A DNA stretch of 64,000 nt, taken from NCBI RefSeq assembly GCF_014196765.1, contig NZ_JACIEE010000012.1, positions 1-64,000 on the forward strand. The letters are read 5' to 3'. The stretch is from Mycoplana azooxidifex. Lineage in GTDB: Bacteria > Pseudomonadota > Alphaproteobacteria > Rhizobiales > Rhizobiaceae. Made by a program: the position numbers and the translations under genes. Each line of letters begins with the position of its first letter. The stretch's first letter is position 1. The notes under the pieces are model-generated. The model saw nothing but the letters and a program-made list of their open reading frames with translations, did no database searches and was not told the DNA's origin. Below are positions 18,959 through 32,256 of this stretch, piece after piece.

Positions 18959-19306
18959 ATGTCCAAACCCTCGTTCGGGCTCAACATCGTCAATCACGCC
19001 GTGATCCGGAAGGTGGGTGCCAAACACCGCTCTGATGTCCATTGTCAATGCATTGGGCACGAAGAAGCTGCCGCTCTCGCGAACGGGCCTCTCATGATGA
19101 TCGCGTATGGGTGGAGGCGAACTCGAGGACGTCGGTGATCAAGCTCTGATGCGCGGGTTGGATACCGCATTCCCGATTGTGCGTCCGGGGCTGTTCCTAT
19201 CTTACTGCGGGCGTCGGACAATGCCGGCCATAAAGCGTCTGACGGATGTTCCCCTGCCGTTGTCCCGCCTCCGCCCATGCGCGAGGTGTAAGTTCGCTGC
19301 AGTGAC

Positions 19307-20330
19307 CTATGTCCTGATTGCCTGCGCCTCCCTTGCAACGGCCCACATGAAGCCGGCCAATTCTCGGGCAATTGCGGTGCAAACCACCGTCGTCCGTTTT
19401 CCCCGTGCGACCAGCAGGCGATATCGAGCCGTTAACCGGCTCTGAGTCTTCCACGCGATCTCTCTGACTGCCGGCGACGCTTCCGCCAGACGGTCTAGCT
19501 TTCTCGCGCCGACTTTCGGCGGGTGCCGGTAAGTCCACGCGCTCTCGACCAGCATGTGCCGAACCCGGCCGTTGCCTGCCTTTGTGATCGAGCCCCCGTC
19601 TGACGGTCTCACCCGTGGATCGCTCACCAGGGACCAAGCCGAGATAGCCCATCAATTGGCGCGGACTCTCGAAACGGCTGACGTCGCCGACTTCCGTGGC
19701 GAATGTAACGGCGACGATCAGATCAACCCCTCGCAGCGTCTGCAGAGCTCGAATGACCGGAGCCAGAGACCAGTTCGGGACAAATTCCTCAATTACCGTC
19801 TCCAGGCGTCCGACGCGCTCTTTCGAGACGCGCACCGCCTCGACCATTTCCTGCAAGGCGATCTGATGCGCCGGATGATCGAACTGTTGCTCCTGGAGCC
19901 AGCAAAGGTATCGCATAAAAGCGCTGATCTGTTGCCGGTGAACCCGCAACGTCTCGACAGCCGCAGCCCGGGCGCGGACGAGGTCGCGCATCGCCTCATG
20001 GCCCTCGTCGGGAACCCACACCGCCGTGAGCTCGCCGGCCCTCAATAGCCGGGCGAGCGCGAGTGCATCTCGACGGTTGGTCTTTACTCTGTCGCCCGGC
20101 TTCCTGGGGATCAATGATGGAACGACGACCACACGTTCATGGCCGAGCGATCGGATCAGCCGATGCAGCCCGTATCCGGTTGGTCCGGCCTCGTAGCAGA
20201 ATTGAGCGCGGTCAAACTTTGCAGCTATCCGCTGGATGATGCGGCGCATGCTCGTATCAGACGCGTCAACCTCACCCCAGAAGCGAACCTCTCCCTCCCG
20301 GCCGGATTTTACTCCGCCGCCTGGCCTTAA
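19307..20330 (-). pseudogene. IS110-family transposase, frameshifted and 5'-truncated
   Basis: The N-terminal RuvC-like DEDD part is read from about 20330 (EVRFWGEVDASD, FCYEAGPTGYGLHR, KTNRRDALALARLL) and the helix-hairpin part ends LMGYLGLVPGERSTGETVRRG. At about 19595 the frame shifts: the correct continuation SITKAGNGRVRHMLVESAW runs in another frame to the stop at 19307. The first conserved Asp (start of the DEDD domain) is missing at the 5' end, where the sequence meets the MocA-like remnant. Inactive. Confidence 0.85.
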
Positions 20331-21362: not shown

Positions 21363-23120
21363 CTATTTCCTGGCTAACGATGACATAAGCCAGTCGAGTT
21401 CCGTGCGAGCGGACGAGAGCACGCTTGCATAGGAACTGACGGTCGTCATGTCACTCCCATATCTCTTGTCCATAGAGGCTGCGGAGCCCTTACCGATCAT
21501 CAAGATCCTCAACGGGCTGCTTGAGGTGATGGTCCCTGATAAGTCATCACGATATTGCTCGGCTTGAGCGATGTCTTCCCGAGAAATCGGATGGTTGGGA
21601 CGTTTGAACTCAATCAGCAGATAGCTGTCAGCTAGATCCTGCGACAGCAGAAGATCAGGCCGTTTCGAGGCCCGTTCGCCCGTAAATTTCTTATCACTAT
21701 ATTTCGCGATGACCCGTTTCAGGGTGACGTTTGATGACATCAGAGCGTATTGGCGGCCAAGAAGCCACAAATTCGTCTCGAAGGCCTTATGGACGTCCTT
21801 TTCGAGGGTCGCTTCGTTGTCGATAAGCTCCTCGAGGTAGTCCAGAAATCTCATTCGTCTGGTCGCTTGAGCAGCGATCCCAGAGAGCTCAACCATACCA
21901 AAATCTTCGAGCGCCGCTGCAAAGGAACTGACATCTGTGCGGTCGGTGGCATTTATCCGCTCGAAGACGGCCCAGTAGGCGTCATGCTCCATGGCGTCGA
22001 GCGCGACCTCCGCGATCGTCGCAATGCGGTCTTCGCTTTCCCGATAGAATCGCTGCAGGATCCGGTGGAGGGCTTCCTCAGCGTAGCGTCGGCGGTGTTC
22101 TGGGAGGTCTTTCAGCCTAGCGTCCAGCTGCTTCTTCAATCGAGCTAGCTGAAGGCTCATATCGCGAGAGTGGCTCTCCCTAAGGCCTTCTTTGACGATG
22201 GATTTCACATAAGATTGGATTTCTTGGAACGCCTTGCTGTTCTCGACCACCCCGCCCCAATCGGCAGTTACGAAATGGTCGTTACCCTCGAGCTCCACCT
22301 CTCCGTAGACTCGTTTCGACAGCTTGAAGGGAATTTCCTCGTCATCATCTAGGCCGAACATCATCGGCTTCCCGACGACCTTCCCGTCCACTTTCAGGAC
22401 GATACCCGGAGCCTTTGGAGCCTTTTTCCCGTCCGCGATCGTGAACTTCAATCGAACTGAGCCGCTCTCAGTAAGCGTCTGCTCGACTTCCCGCGATACA
22501 CCAGGAACATCGTCGACGGATAGCTGCGCCTCGTTCACGAATACTCTGAAGGAATCCTCCCGGCCGTACTCATGCACGAGGATTTCTCGAAAGCGGTCCG
22601 GCGTTGGGAAATTCAAACGGCTATCAAGACCCGACAGGATGATTGTCGTGCCTGCACGAGCTTCGCCTGCATCCTCCTCGATGAATGGTAGCGGCACTGC
22701 TTCCAAGTCGTTCTCATTCTCGGCCAGGACGAGCTTGTCGATGGTCAGGCTGCATTTCCGACCTCGAGCGACCGCTGAGACATCCATCCGGCTGGCCAAC
22801 GATAGGCCAGCGAACTTACCAATACCCTTGCGGCCCTTGACCTTCCGCTTGAGGAGCGGCGTACGTTCACCTGTACGCGCCCGTTTGTCACTGGCGATGT
22901 TCAGGTACTCGTTTCGCATTTCCAGGGACGTCATTCCCGAACCGTCGTCGCGCACGGTGATCGGATCAGCCGACAACGGCGTCGGCAGCGTGATCCAAAC
23001 ATTCTTCGCGTCAGCGTCCCACGCGTTGTCGACAAGTTCTTTCAAGGCGGCTTCGCTAGATCGATAGGTTTCACCCAAAAGCCTGGTCAGTCGTGTATTC
23101 ACCGAAAAATGCACGTCCAT
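21363..23120 (-). CDS. GHKL (Hsp90-like) ATPase with C-terminal PD-(D/E)XK-like domain
   Basis: 585 residues. N-terminal GHKL ATPase: N-box EAALKELVDNAWDADA near residue 24-38, G1 VRDDGSGM near 57, G2 KGRKGIGKFAGLS near 95. The middle part (about 300-400) is charged and helical. The C-terminal part has RPDLLLSQDL with Asp489 followed by LLIEFKRP with Glu504 and Lys506, the spacing expected for a PD-(D/E)XK nuclease fold. ATPase-switched nuclease architecture recalls MORC- or MutL-like and Shedu/DUF4263-type defence proteins. It is a single gene with no modification partner. A role in defence or DNA processing is inferred; the domains are seen. Confidence 0.8.
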   Translation of the reverse strand: MDVHFSVNTRLTRLLGETYRSSEAALKELVDNAWDADAKNVWITLPTPLSADPITVRDDGSGMTSLEMRNEYLNIASDKRARTGERTPLLKRKVKGRKGIGKFAGLSLASRMDVSAVARGRKCSLTIDKLVLAENENDLEAVPLPFIEEDAGEARAGTTIILSGLDSRLNFPTPDRFREILVHEYGREDSFRVFVNEAQLSVDDVPGVSREVEQTLTESGSVRLKFTIADGKKAPKAPGIVLKVDGKVVGKPMMFGLDDDEEIPFKLSKRVYGEVELEGNDHFVTADWGGVVENSKAFQEIQSYVKSIVKEGLRESHSRDMSLQLARLKKQLDARLKDLPEHRRRYAEEALHRILQRFYRESEDRIATIAEVALDAMEHDAYWAVFERINATDRTDVSSFAAALEDFGMVELSGIAAQATRRMRFLDYLEELIDNEATLEKDVHKAFETNLWLLGRQYALMSSNVTLKRVIAKYSDKKFTGERASKRPDLLLSQDLADSYLLIEFKRPNHPISREDIAQAEQYRDDLSGTITSSSPLRILMIGKGSAASMDKRYGSDMTTVSSYASVLSSARTELDWLMSSLARK

Positions 23121-27652: not shown

Positions 27653-30619
27653 ATGTCCGACAATGCTTTCAAGTTTCTCCTTCAAGACGATAGCCAGCCG
27701 TTCTTTCCGTCGCGATGTTACGTGGTCGCGGACCCGGCGGTGGCGGAACGCGACCAGTGGTCAGTAGAACTTGACGAACCTGTCGGGGAACGTTGGGTCC
27801 ACCGCATCGACGATATCAAGGACTGGATGCTGCACGGGGAAAAAGATACCCGGCAAATGATCTTTGATCGTAACGACCGTTTCACGCCTTTCCGAACCCT
27901 GCATCGTGACGAGGTTTTCAGGGCATACTTACGAAAGCTCCTGGATCGTCTGCCGCCTGAATATGAGTCGCATCGTAAACACGCGCTCATGCCGTCTATC
28001 GCGGAAGAGAAAACGCGCAACCGATATAAAGACGCCGTCGAAGCGGCAATCCCGGGCATCACTCTGCTCCCGGAGCCAGAGATGGTGGCGGAATACTTCC
28101 GTCTAGTGAAAGGCACGCTCGAGCTTGAGGAGCGTAGGAACAACGTCATCCTCGTAGTTGATGTCGGCGCTTCGACGGCCAACATGACGCTTATCGTCAG
28201 TCGCCGGGACCAGAAAATTGTTTCGGCAGGGAAAAAGGGCACTCAACGCGACCTCCGACTTCGAGCGCTTCGAGGTGACAGCGTCGGCCATGCGGGGCGC
28301 TGGGTAGATATCCGTCTCGCCGGAATGCTAGGAATGCCCGAAACCGCGGAAGCATTGCGAGAAGTCGAGAGTGCCAAGATAAGGGTCAGCCTGAGTGGAA
28401 AATCGACCGCGTTCGAAAGCGGCACTACGACCAAACCATCATCGTTGACGCGAAAGACATTGTCGTCCGTCTCGAAGGAACTGTGGTTTCACCTGCGGCC
28501 GCTCTTCGAGAAGCTCTGCGAACGGCTTTATGAAAACCAGACGTCTTCAATCGATGCGAAACGGTTGAGCGCAGATCGAATGGAGGAGCTGGGCGTCAAG
28601 GCACCTCAGGAAGCATATCGTCTGATCGACACGGTTCTTCTCGCGGGAGGCACCAGCCTTTTGCCGGGTTTCGATGAAGCGATGATGGAAACACTCTTCC
28701 CGGAGGGCGAGCATCCAAAGGTGCTTCGCGTGGGAAGTTCCTTTGCGATAGCCGCCGCAGCGGGGGGGCTCGCCCATATCCTGCAGAACTACGACCCTCC
28801 CCGGCTTCGCAGCCGCCGGGCTGACAACAACGAGGTTCGCTCCGCTCCTCTGGAATCGACGCTTCCCGACTCTCTTCTGCTCGGCATCAAGCAGCCTGGC
28901 GAACTGGAGCAGCGTATAGCGGTACTAGATGCAAACGATCCGTTCGTGGATGACGGCGGTGTGAGGCCCATCGAAGGACTTCCGGCTCTTGCAGCCGGCT
29001 CTCATCCGAAAATGCGCCTGGTCCCCGGTTTGGGGGCGGGATTGTCGGCGCGGCAAGGACGTCCTTTCAAAGCTATGGACGTAAGGCAGTCTCCTGGCAA
29101 GATGTCGTTGAAATGGGACCCCGACGAGGAAAAGGCCTTTATCCTTTCAGACCAGATCGACGGGACCGGGTATCTGTGGATCGAGGGCAAGGACTTCCGA
29201 AAGCGCTCGGAGCCTGCCTTGACGCCGTTCGAGGGCGAACTGGCGACAGGCGATCTCGCCATCGATGGAGCGGAAGACGTTATCCTAGACCTCGGAATGT
29301 CGAAGATCGTCGTGATGACCGCGCAACGCGGCAGGACCTCCGCCAGCGAGCTTGAACATTTGATGCGCGATGGCATCGGCAGAGGTCCCGGCGAGAGTGC
29401 TTCGCCAGCAGCCGTTACTGTATCGACATCGGAACTTGTGGATTCAATCGACGATCAACCTCCCGCAGCACCGAAAGGGAAGGAAGAAAAGTCACGTGAC
29501 CAGGATGGCAAGGCGTCGGCAAACAATCCTGCCCGCTTGAAAGACGCTGCCGCGCCCCCGCAATCCGCTACCGCACCCAAGGATGGATCCGTTGCGATTA
29601 CCCCCGGTGTCGATCGGGCTAGCCACGTTTCAAACGAATGGGGCAACCGGGTATCGGAAACTGTTTTTTCGAACGCTCTTTTGTCCTTGAAGGAAGCCGT
29701 GATCCGAAACGAGCCGACGTTTAACTTCGATGACGTCGTCGTGACTTTGTTGGCGCTGACCGTCCGACCCGTCGTTTTGCTCGCGGGCCCTCCTGGTTGC
29801 GGGAAATCGTCGTTGGTCAGGATGATCGCCCGCATGTTGGGCATGACACGTGGCGAGACTTTCCACGAGATCGCGGTCCAGGCGCACTGGGAAAACGACG
29901 GCGTGCTGTTCGGCGACTCTGGCCTACTTCGGCCAGTGCTCGGCGAAACGTCGAACCAGCACCTGATCCTCTTCGACGAATTCAACCTCACCCGGCCCGA
30001 GTATTATCTTTCCCGGTTTTTCCATGCTTTGGACGGCGGTCATGGACATCTCGAAAGCGGGCTCAGCATCGCACCGTGCCGAATACTCGGGACGATGAAT
30101 GTCGACGACTTCTCCCGCCCTCCATCGCCAAAGGTCATCGACCGCTGCTTCCTACTGGAACTTGCCCAAATCCCGTGGCACAGCGAATCAGGCGGGATGG
30201 TGGAGCTTCGAGATGTCGATCCCCTCCCCGGTCTCCCGGTGGTGAGCTATGGTGGAGCGGGCAAGGATGAGCGCATCGAGCGTATCCTCGATGCGCTTCA
30301 TGTGGCGGTCCATGAACACGGTCTTCGTCATGACCTTCTGCCGTCCCGTCGCGTGTTGGGCGACATCAGGTCGATACTTAATCTACATCACCAACTGGAT
30401 CTGCAGGCTAAAGGTTTGCTGGACCGTGGTGAGCTCGTCGACCGGATCGTCGCGAGCCGCATTCTCGTGAAGCTATCGGGCGCAATCGATCAAGTGCAGC
30501 CCGCTCTGGAAGCGTTGGAGCGGGCGGCCAACGGATTGGACGAGCTGGTGAGAACTAAGGCTCGGTTGAAACTCGCCCGACATCAGGCGCGTCTCGGGTT
30601 CGTATCCCCTTGGCAGTAG
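27653..30619 (+). CDS. Hsp70/actin-like ATPase fused to McrB-type AAA+ domain
   Basis: 988 residues. Residues 20-375 resemble an Hsp70/actin-fold ATPase: LLPEPEMVAEYF at 138-149, phosphate-loop VVDVGASTANMTL at 168-180, and adenosine-site LLAGGTSLLPGFDE at about 335. The N-terminal DxGTT loop expected before residue 20 is not seen. Residues 380-570 resemble the substrate-binding side (SLLLGIKQPG); 570-660 is a Pro/Ser/Lys-rich linker. Residues 690-985 are a McrB-like AAA+: Walker A GPPGCGKS 712-719, Walker B LILFDEFN with Asp775-Glu776, and signature GTMNVDD at 813-819. Overlaps the next gene by 10 bases. Inferred to be the motor/sensor part of a defence complex. Confidence 0.85.
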   Translation: MSDNAFKFLLQDDSQPFFPSRCYVVADPAVAERDQWSVELDEPVGERWVHRIDDIKDWMLHGEKDTRQMIFDRNDRFTPFRTLHRDEVFRAYLRKLLDRLPPEYESHRKHALMPSIAEEKTRNRYKDAVEAAIPGITLLPEPEMVAEYFRLVKGTLELEERRNNVILVVDVGASTANMTLIVSRRDQKIVSAGKKGTQRDLRLRALRGDSVGHAGRWVDIRLAGMLGMPETAEALREVESAKIRVSLSGKSTAFESGTTTKPSSLTRKTLSSVSKELWFHLRPLFEKLCERLYENQTSSIDAKRLSADRMEELGVKAPQEAYRLIDTVLLAGGTSLLPGFDEAMMETLFPEGEHPKVLRVGSSFAIAAAAGGLAHILQNYDPPRLRSRRADNNEVRSAPLESTLPDSLLLGIKQPGELEQRIAVLDANDPFVDDGGVRPIEGLPALAAGSHPKMRLVPGLGAGLSARQGRPFKAMDVRQSPGKMSLKWDPDEEKAFILSDQIDGTGYLWIEGKDFRKRSEPALTPFEGELATGDLAIDGAEDVILDLGMSKIVVMTAQRGRTSASELEHLMRDGIGRGPGESASPAAVTVSTSELVDSIDDQPPAAPKGKEEKSRDQDGKASANNPARLKDAAAPPQSATAPKDGSVAITPGVDRASHVSNEWGNRVSETVFSNALLSLKEAVIRNEPTFNFDDVVVTLLALTVRPVVLLAGPPGCGKSSLVRMIARMLGMTRGETFHEIAVQAHWENDGVLFGDSGLLRPVLGETSNQHLILFDEFNLTRPEYYLSRFFHALDGGHGHLESGLSIAPCRILGTMNVDDFSRPPSPKVIDRCFLLELAQIPWHSESGGMVELRDVDPLPGLPVVSYGGAGKDERIERILDALHVAVHEHGLRHDLLPSRRVLGDIRSILNLHHQLDLQAKGLLDRGELVDRIVASRILVKLSGAIDQVQPALEALERAANGLDELVRTKARLKLARHQARLGFVSPWQ

Positions 30620-32256
30620 AGGCTTCTTCCATCGTCGCAGTTCGGGTCGCGGACGCCGACGGTGTCTACAAGGAGCTTCCGTGGAACCCTACAACGCGGT
30701 ATCTGATCAGGGACGACAAGCCCTTTCTTGATGTTCTGGTTCGCGGGGCGCTTCTCAACGCCAGAGCGGACCTCAAAGACGAATCGAAACTCCGTGATTT
30801 GAAGGAGACCGAGGAAAGCGGAGCCAGATGGCAGAGATGGGACCTCGAGACCTATCTCGCTAGATTCCGCCGCTTCGGCGAGATAAATCTCGAACTCAAA
30901 GTTCCGAAAAGCTCTGCGTTGCACTGCTACATAATCCCGACCGCATTGCTAGACCTCCGGGATGTCATAGCCATGGTCGATGACATCGAAAGCGAGCTGG
31001 GAATAGTCGCGGCCTGGGATGTCGACAGCCCGAAGCCGGAAAGATCGTGGAGCCGGGGAACCGATCGGAGAGGTTCGACTACGGCCCTTGAACTAATTCG
31101 GGAGGCAACTGAGGAGCTGGCTGCGGCAACCTCTCTCCGACGGGAGCCGTTCATCGAGCTGGGGCCTCGCTCCAGACGAAACTTGCCTCTTCCGGAAAAC
31201 GCGGTCGTATCGCATTGGGCAGCCAGGAGATGCGCGCAGCTCCGAGATTGCGCGGCCGTCTGCATCGCTGAGATGCAGTCGCTCGAGGACAGGGCGGCGC
31301 GCGGACACGCCGAAAGGCGACGAGAGAGGATAGAGGACAGGCTCGCCACGCTGAAATCGGTAAAGACGAAACTGGAACATCTGACCAGTATCATCGCACG
31401 GTTTGGTAATGACGGCTCGGAACTAAACACTCTCGTTTACCCCACGCCCCTGTTTCATCGTGACCACCGCCTCAGGCTTCTGTTGCGCGCGTTCTCGCCG
31501 CTTATCTCAGAGACCATCGCCGAATCCGAGGCACTGCGATCGCGGTATCCCCCAATCCTTTTGACCAAGCTCTGGGAATTCTGGGGGGCTGTATGGCTTG
31601 TGAAGGTGTTTCGCGACCTTGGATTTACAGGACATTGCATTACGGAGCTGAAAAATGCGCCGGGTGCATGTTCCTGGCGTCTGCGAAAAGCGAATGTGCA
31701 AATCGAACTCGATTTCGAGGCCGAGCCGAACTACGTCGACTATTCCAAGATACCGCCCCCGCACGAGCGAGCGGTACCCGTCTTGGAGTGGGCGGCGCTG
31801 AACCAGGAAATGGATCCTGAGCGACCGTTCCTGGGACTGGAAGAGAAATGCTCTCCGGACTACATGCTGAGGATAACTGTCGGAAACGAACGTTTTCTCG
31901 TCGTCGGCGACGCGACCCTCGCGAGCGCGGAGTACCATCACAAAGACCCAAAGCCGAAAACGGTCGAAAAGTATCGCCGCACGCTCGGCTGGTCCATCGA
32001 TGGCGGAATAGTAAGATGCCACCCGATGGGCGGCTTTGTCATTTTTCCTCCACCTTCCGCATCCTGGAAAGAGTTCGAGGTCATTCCCGGAGCGGCAGAC
32101 TGCGTGATATTCGCACCGGGGCCGAGAGATGCAGAGGTTGCGAGGCACCGACTGCTAGGTCTTCTGGTGGCAGTTTCGCCGGACCTCAAAGCCAATTTGA
32201 TGACTCAGGATTTGGCTCAAGGACCGGAGTATCGCGCGGACGAGATTGATGCATAG
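30610..32256 (+). CDS. DUF2357/McrC-like putative nuclease partner
   Basis: 548 residues from a TTG at 30610, overlapping the previous gene by 10 bases (translational coupling); no ATG gives a better start. The helical centre (300-345) contains LTKLWEFWGAVWLVKVFRDLGF, the pattern seen in DUF2357/DUF524 nucleases that accompany McrB-like AAA+ proteins. The C-terminal part has SPDYMLRITVG with Asp417 then LVVGDATLAS with Asp434, fitting a PD-(D/E)XK core, but the usual catalytic Lys is Thr436. It should be the effector of the AAA partner. The fold call is by motif and context; cleavage activity is uncertain. Confidence 0.72.
   Translation: MAVEASSIVAVRVADADGVYKELPWNPTTRYLIRDDKPFLDVLVRGALLNARADLKDESKLRDLKETEESGARWQRWDLETYLARFRRFGEINLELKVPKSSALHCYIIPTALLDLRDVIAMVDDIESELGIVAAWDVDSPKPERSWSRGTDRRGSTTALELIREATEELAAATSLRREPFIELGPRSRRNLPLPENAVVSHWAARRCAQLRDCAAVCIAEMQSLEDRAARGHAERRRERIEDRLATLKSVKTKLEHLTSIIARFGNDGSELNTLVYPTPLFHRDHRLRLLLRAFSPLISETIAESEALRSRYPPILLTKLWEFWGAVWLVKVFRDLGFTGHCITELKNAPGACSWRLRKANVQIELDFEAEPNYVDYSKIPPPHERAVPVLEWAALNQEMDPERPFLGLEEKCSPDYMLRITVGNERFLVVGDATLASAEYHHKDPKPKTVEKYRRTLGWSIDGGIVRCHPMGGFVIFPPPSASWKEFEVIPGAADCVIFAPGPRDAEVARHRLLGLLVAVSPDLKANLMTQDLAQGPEYRADEIDA

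Follow-up and report, generated by a model that had tools for sequence, protein, structure and literature searches.

The 64,000-nucleotide stretch of Mycoplana azooxidifex DNA analysed here (the window) carries two overlapping genes that probably form a McrBC-like defence module, akin to Type IV restriction systems and belonging to the group in which an NxD McrB GTPase is fused to an Hsp70-like domain. Such a module would be GTP-driven and would sense RNA or protein, with DNA cutting that is weak, altered or absent. Gene 1 (27653..30619) encodes 988 amino acids from an ATG start and comprises a predicted Hsp70-like nucleotide-binding domain, a beta-rich region, a linker and an NxD McrB-type AAA+ domain. 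Gene 2 (30610..32256) starts at TTG and encodes a 548-amino-acid DUF2357/McrC-like partner. Both genes, like all features located below unless marked otherwise, lie on the + strand, and together they occupy 4.6 kilobases (kb). Three domains, the NxD motif, a conserved gene overlap and surroundings rich in candidate defence genes are documented at the level of sequence, and they carry the assignment.

Both genes are real. The open reading frames (ORFs) and the 10-base overlap described in the initial annotation were recovered, as were its motif positions in the two proteins (Walker A G712–S719, Walker B D775–E776, GTMN 813–816, LWEFW 321–325, PD 416–417 and D434). Eleven gene 1 proteins were aligned, the ten from outside the window being 57–89% identical to the window protein. 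In-frame stop codons stand directly 5′ of the gene 1 ATG, and the closest homologues (loci L002–L004) have the identical start position with the upstream frame closed, so the N-terminus is not truncated. At all ten loci read, a TTG, GTG or ATG start of the partner offers the same 10-base-pair overlap; the public annotation of locus L023 places the partner start later than this. The ratio of nonsynonymous to synonymous substitution rates (dN/dS) was 0.08–0.13 in six of ten comparisons, two of which had a dS of about 3, and the remaining four were saturated. The partner gene is broken at two of ten loci, L023 (435 amino acids) and L024 (401 amino acids). There (L024:17967–21423 and L023:18021–19328), gene 1 is open throughout, and IS21-type genes follow directly in L024.

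The motor of gene 1 is assigned to the NxD McrB GTPases, since it carries their signature and groups with them. The McrB-type AAA+ GTPase domain proposed in the initial annotation spans residues 660–988 (29630..30616) and was confirmed by hhalign against ten McrB-like proteins (E 9.6e-31 over 295 columns, reaching the C-terminal tryptophan; all hhalign E-values given here refer to one target each). It includes Walker A GPPGCGKS (residues 712–719, 29786..29809), Walker B LILFDEFN (residues 771–778, 29963..29986) and the NxD signature GTMNVDD (residues 813–819, 30089..30109). The pattern N-[VI]-D-[DE] is present in all 11 gene 1 members, and the signature GTMNVDDFSRPPSPKVIDRC aligns without gaps with NxD sequences such as GTVNVDETTYMFSPKVLDRA. 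Among the references, N-x-D-E was located in 12 of 13 NxD proteins, one not being located, and GTMNTAD[RQ]S in four of five NxxD proteins; the pattern missed E. coli McrB, which we take to be NxxD, in keeping with its tree position. A tree of 25 rows, from which L032 was omitted because the pattern found no Walker A, separates the five NxxD rows from the 20 NxD and gene 1 rows at 100/100.

The N-terminal part of gene 1 (residues 1–390, 27653..28822) is supported as a putative Hsp70/actin-superfamily domain that resembles Hsp70 most closely. This bears out the Hsp70/actin-like ATPase region noticed initially, for which a profile comparison of residues 20–375 had been proposed. In hhalign, residues 52–362 aligned with a set of 17 Hsp70 proteins, six of which had been chosen through similarity to the Hsp70–McrB family studied here (Prob 96.4, E 1.4e-9), and the domain also matched 11 DnaK/YegD-type proteins fetched by family and not by similarity (Prob 91.1, E 1.1e-6). 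The maximum score among 30 column shuffles of the domain was 26.1, against 78.5 for the real alignment, and the negative controls, in which the partner or the McrB domain was compared with Hsp70, gave Prob ≤0.3. The alignment path covers the phosphate-2 region (VVDVGASTANMTLI opposite VYDLGGGTFDISVL of DnaK) and the adenosine motif. The corresponding motifs, recognised by alignment to Hsp70, are a phosphate-2-like ILVVDVGASTANMTLI (residues 166–181, 28148..28195) and an adenosine-like DTVLLAGGTSLLPGF (residues 326–340, 28628..28672). The 'phosphate loop' first placed at residues 168–180 is thus present, but it corresponds to phosphate-2; no N-terminal phosphate-1 motif was seen in the 11 aligned proteins. 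Residues 391–537 (28823..29263) occupy the place of the Hsp70 substrate-binding domain. They are beta-rich in low-confidence model strands and have no profile match to Hsp70 (E 0.39).

These features bear directly on what the domain could do. One idea is that it recognises an unfolded or phage protein, as put forward in the initial annotation, and that the McrB motor then remodels or unfolds this protein or triggers an abortive response; it draws on the relationship of the domain to Hsp70. CmdTAC reportedly senses via a chaperone. Phage sensing is reported to involve chaperones in other systems, such as DnaJ with bNACHT25 (PMC12169576) and CmdTAC (PMC11618068). Against this idea, an ordinary chaperone cycle is unlikely for a protein that lacks phosphate-1 at its N-terminus and in which no Hsp70 substrate-binding domain was detected. 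Bell et al. (2024, eLife, PMC11090510) describe degenerate Walker A-like and ATPase motifs in the Hsp70 domains of such fusions and, because of this degeneracy, favour RNA binding, an argument that the missing phosphate-1 of gene 1 fits. We judge protein recognition of this kind improbable, though still worth weighing.

A displaced phosphate-1 motif would imply a permuted Hsp70 domain. The conserved segment DVILDLGMSKIVVMTA (residues 542–557, 29276..29323), within which DLGMSKIVV occupies residues 546–554, has a weak resemblance to phosphate-1 by motif score, and a permuted domain would follow if it were a real phosphate-1. Its score is 17.7, compared with 48–54 in five Hsp70 proteins, and is reached by 43 of 2000 shuffles of window residues 1–579; it is the top-scoring site in eight of 11 members, another site ranking first in the other three. 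Moving the segment to the front of the domain brought no score gain in hhalign or NCBIfam profiles, and permutation was rejected as a candidate on this test. A longer hhalign alignment did appear with the moved segment and not with two control segments. It was lost after two Hsp70 sequences were added, when all 44 prepended segments gave the same template column start. Circular permutation of the Hsp70 domain is accordingly put forward as a conjecture, with support at the level of the motif and none from the profile tests. Neither Bell et al. (PMC11090510) nor its preprint has the string 'permut' in its main text.

Gene 2 was identified from the outset as a DUF2357/McrC-like partner, and hhalign, shuffles and a co-linear alignment uphold this. 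Residues 28–184 matched nine DUF2357-type proteins (E 3.1e-5, Prob 72.9), and 30 shuffles of gene 2 reached at most 21.8 against a real score of 48.4; the match of the nuclease half was weak (E 0.0063, Prob 6). The Pfam DUF2357 model did not match gene 2, and Foldseek of its model returned nothing at E ≤0.001. When 18 proteins are aligned together, the elements run co-linearly through LWEFW/LYExW, PD/PD, YRRT/YRDA and VIFPP/ILYPG, the LWEFW helix (residues 321–325, 31570..31584) aligning with the LYExW of DUF2357 proteins. The best-scored part of the AlphaFold model is a long helical pair at residues 195–266 (31192..31407), with a predicted local distance difference test (pLDDT) score of 77–91 in six of eight ten-residue blocks.

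The PD-(D/E)xK nuclease site of the partner looks disabled. Its degenerate core (PD 416–417 and GDAT 433–436, 31855..31917) retains the PD and the second aspartate noted initially, but the catalytic lysine is replaced: all eight intact members, the window protein included, read D-A-[TSC], whereas D-[AP]-K is kept in ten of ten DUF2357 references. This substitution argues against an alternative in which the partner is an active nuclease with a rearranged site, for example with a lysine supplied by the following helix, making the pair a Type IV restriction system that cuts DNA and has a chaperone-like sensor. In favour of that alternative, the PD and the second aspartate are invariant in all eight partners, as is K448 in the alignment, and since no nuclease gene is conserved beside the pair, the module would otherwise be nuclease-less. 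We regard an active nuclease as unlikely on balance. As a separate observation, C343, C354, C414, C470, H471 and C498 of gene 2 are invariant in all eight partners, several of them near the nuclease core, and could possibly form a metal or redox site.

In the preferred reading of a GTP-driven McrBC-like defence module, the gene 1 protein would assemble into a ring that the DUF2357-type partner stimulates. Lacking phosphate-1, the Hsp70-like domain would serve as a binding or sensing module and not as a cycling chaperone, and its target would most likely be RNA or related to translation, following Bell et al. (PMC11090510). The partner, lacking the core lysine, may bind nucleic acid or couple the motor to its target instead of performing the usual DNA cutting. 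A more radical form can be imagined, in which the pair is a nuclease-free McrBC relative, with an Hsp70-derived pseudo-ATPase as sensor on a stand-alone GTP-driven ring and a non-cutting McrC; it would pull, remodel or sequester RNA or protein and so block phage. This form, which at its boldest would include a permuted Hsp70 domain, is doubtful.

The genomic surroundings are consistent with defence. The gene pair is the sole content common to all 11 loci, and no other gene cluster occurs at more than three of them; the three-locus clusters connect the window, L002 and L003, whose flanks are shared, and a few further clusters link pairs of loci. A conserved third gene was sought across the 11 loci and none was found. 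A Pfam scan of 20 flanking proteins left eight without a family. The remainder include an OLD-like nuclease and a UvrD helicase (L005), DUF4365 (L006), a NERD-kinase (L007), an AAA_21 ATPase (L008), and an ImmA/IrrE regulator with a HEPN protein (L004), together with four further proteins, a histidine kinase, an integrase, a transposase and a transporter. In the window itself, a gene 4.5 kb upstream of the pair (21363–23120, − strand) combines a GHKL domain (HATPase_c_3, E 3.7e-26) with a Shedu SduA C-terminal domain (E 2.3e-6). The OLD-like/UvrD, DUF4365, NERD-kinase, AAA_21, ImmA/IrrE, HEPN and GHKL–Shedu neighbours are ones that we presume to be of defence type. The neighbourhood survey proposed initially thus found defence-rich neighbours both by Pfam and by PADLOC against a control.

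For the PADLOC comparison, flanks were taken from nine of the 11 loci, the near-copies L003 and L022 being left out. Of 84 flanking proteins called, 12 were dropped (four L002 duplicates of window genes, two IS21 and six others) and L008:7500–9071 was added, giving 73; for the control, five 20-kb stretches of the genome to which the window belongs supplied 73 proteins. At E 1e-15, 151 models were matched by the flanking proteins and nine by the control proteins, a contrast that is inflated because at least 25 of the 151, all 25 of those listed, are matched by the same two methyltransferase-type proteins.

The family is also rare and patchy. Full-length gene 1 homologues were found at seven loci in the GTDB genome set, six in Rhizobiales and one in Azospirillum, by a scan that detects close relatives only. 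Four of eight matched plasmid records carry a full-length homologue, two of the four coming from one strain. Among 101 relatives, gene 1 was matched in 13, at full length in its own genome only and as P-loop stretches in the other 12. In a class sample of 385 genomes, the own genome was the sole match to the partner profile. The Hsp70-region profile matched three of 397 genomes in the order sample, one match being a fragment near a contig end, and four of 398 in the phylum sample, namely the own genome, the same contig-end fragment, an ordinary Hsp70 protein (L063) and genome G674. A sample of the class to which G551 belongs gave none in 369 beyond an AAA match at E 1e-10. Carriage by phages was considered and rejected, as phage records gave no gene 1 match and pattern scans of viral contigs found relatives of neither gene. 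An empty insertion site was sought, and no comparison was possible because the downstream flank was found in only three of 61 genomes, the own genome included.

Several observations weigh against a defence module built on an Hsp70-like sensor. They include the inflated PADLOC contrast and the similarity-chosen Hsp70 references described above. DnaK alone gave Prob 1.6 and YegD-type proteins alone 47.1 in hhalign, and the MreB control, a weak one consisting of a single sequence, gave Prob 4.3. The Pfam HSP70 model had no match at E ≤10 and missed the locus when its own genome was scanned. The top curated model was that of the actin-like BeeR, at E 1.6e-8 and 33 bits against a cut-off of 530; it was matched by all 11 members, in every case far below its cut-off. 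A profile of residues 1–579 found no Hsp70 in the PDB, and a weak PDB Hsp70 match in the linker (residues 545–645, E 0.028), lying beside AAA matches, was taken as chance. Structure prediction, proposed initially, yielded models of both proteins that were too poor to use (mean pLDDT 41 for gene 1 and 56 for gene 2, whose modelled N-terminus is beta-rich). In the tree, the eight gene 1 rows form one group (100/100) on a long branch joined to the flagged long branch L026, and the tree does not resolve a deepest-NxD placement.

The PADLOC search itself, another of the initial proposals, was carried out and gave gene 1 weak matches only, nearly all to the P-loop, and gene 2 none, and no model fits the pair. 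One such match, of PDC-M61B to gene 1 residues 150–189 in the phosphate-2 region, had E 0.0013; the PDC-M61B family may hold another Hsp70-like defence protein. Among the papers listed in the literature searches, no functional experiment on such a pair and no named system with this architecture turned up. The want of a direct defence test in those searches and of a fitting PADLOC model can be cited for a rival reading of the pair as a stress-response or housekeeping assembly lying by chance in variable islands. Its rarity and patchiness (no genome besides its own matched among the 385 of the class sample, and three of 397 in the order sample), its presence on plasmids, the broken partner at two of ten loci and the defence-rich neighbours all argue the other way, and we consider a housekeeping role very unlikely.

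As a kind, the pair is not new, and the initial claim of an undescribed architecture does not stand, since Bell et al. (PMC11090510) had already reported Hsp70–McrB fusions as the deepest-branching group among the 'NxD' McrB GTPases, none of which had so far been characterised according to that paper. What the pair appears to add is an uncharacterised and unusually compact two-gene member with a disabled-looking nuclease site. Likened to that group by its description in the text of Bell et al., the pair shares an Hsp70-like nucleotide-binding domain with an NxD McrB, a McrC-type partner and degenerate Hsp70 ATPase motifs. The fusion itself is supported by hhalign (Prob 91.1 and 96.4, with controls) despite the absence of a Pfam HSP70 match and an actin-like best curated model. 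An Hsp70-like substrate-binding domain also belongs to the fusions as described there; the corresponding residues of gene 1 are beta-rich at low confidence and lack a profile match. Within the parts drawn on, a 2025 preprint on YprA helicases (PMC12458937) contains no occurrence of Hsp70.

Among other relatives, Type III CoCoNuT systems (CnuD/CnuCD) have in common with the pair an NxD GTPase, a DUF2357 protein without catalytic PD-(D/E)xK and an Hsp70-like component, as described in PMC11090510. They differ in that their Hsp70-like part is either joined to McrC or encoded separately, with genes for the CnuH helicase and nuclease effectors alongside (PMC11090510); no such genes are conserved beside the pair. 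The features of a CoCoNuT, a long coiled-coil McrB with helicase or nuclease genes linked to it, were not found here, as the N-terminal region of gene 1 is Hsp70-like and no third gene is conserved, and no coiled-coil predictor was used. A relation to CnuD was examined and dropped, as blastp gave the putative CnuD of L088 no significant match (best listed E 0.17). The methyltransferase-adjacent NxD McrBC loci (L030–L033, L035 and L085) likewise place a DUF2357 gene immediately after a McrB-like gene. In contrast to the pair, their McrB-like proteins are shorter (488–672 amino acids) and carry no annotated Hsp70 part, a methyltransferase gene lies adjacent, and the partner has D-[AP]-K intact. 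EcoKMcrBC also combines a McrB-type AAA+ with a McrC-type partner, but it groups with NxxD and is separated from the pair at 100/100; we take it to have a DNA-reading N-terminal domain.

Some other genes stood out during the analysis. The GHKL–Shedu gene (21363–23120, −) is a second candidate defence gene combining an ATPase with a nuclease. Another window ORF (19197–20249, −) presumably encodes an IS110-type transposase. At the Azospirillum locus (L008:14614–15816), a 400-amino-acid gene directly follows the partner; it has no Pfam family, and the ORFs called at the other loci include no relative. On proteobacterial plasmids (L064–L066), Hsp70-family genes lie downstream of a DUF2760 gene: L065 has two consecutive Hsp70 genes, L066 has one near annotated anti-phage genes, and L064 has an unannotated Hsp70-like gene pair. 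These DUF2760-linked Hsp70 genes possibly constitute a separate system. In Rhizobium leguminosarum, an operon at L088:2557–14419 fits Type III-B CoCoNuT by gene order, and the adjoining gene is annotated Shedu.

With only two genes in 4.6 kb and no conserved accessory gene, the pair is perhaps among the easiest Hsp70–McrB systems to test. Should the pair prove to protect with its nuclease non-functional, defence by Type IV-like motors could rely on means other than DNA cleavage, and an Hsp70 fold could serve as an infection sensor integrated in a motor.

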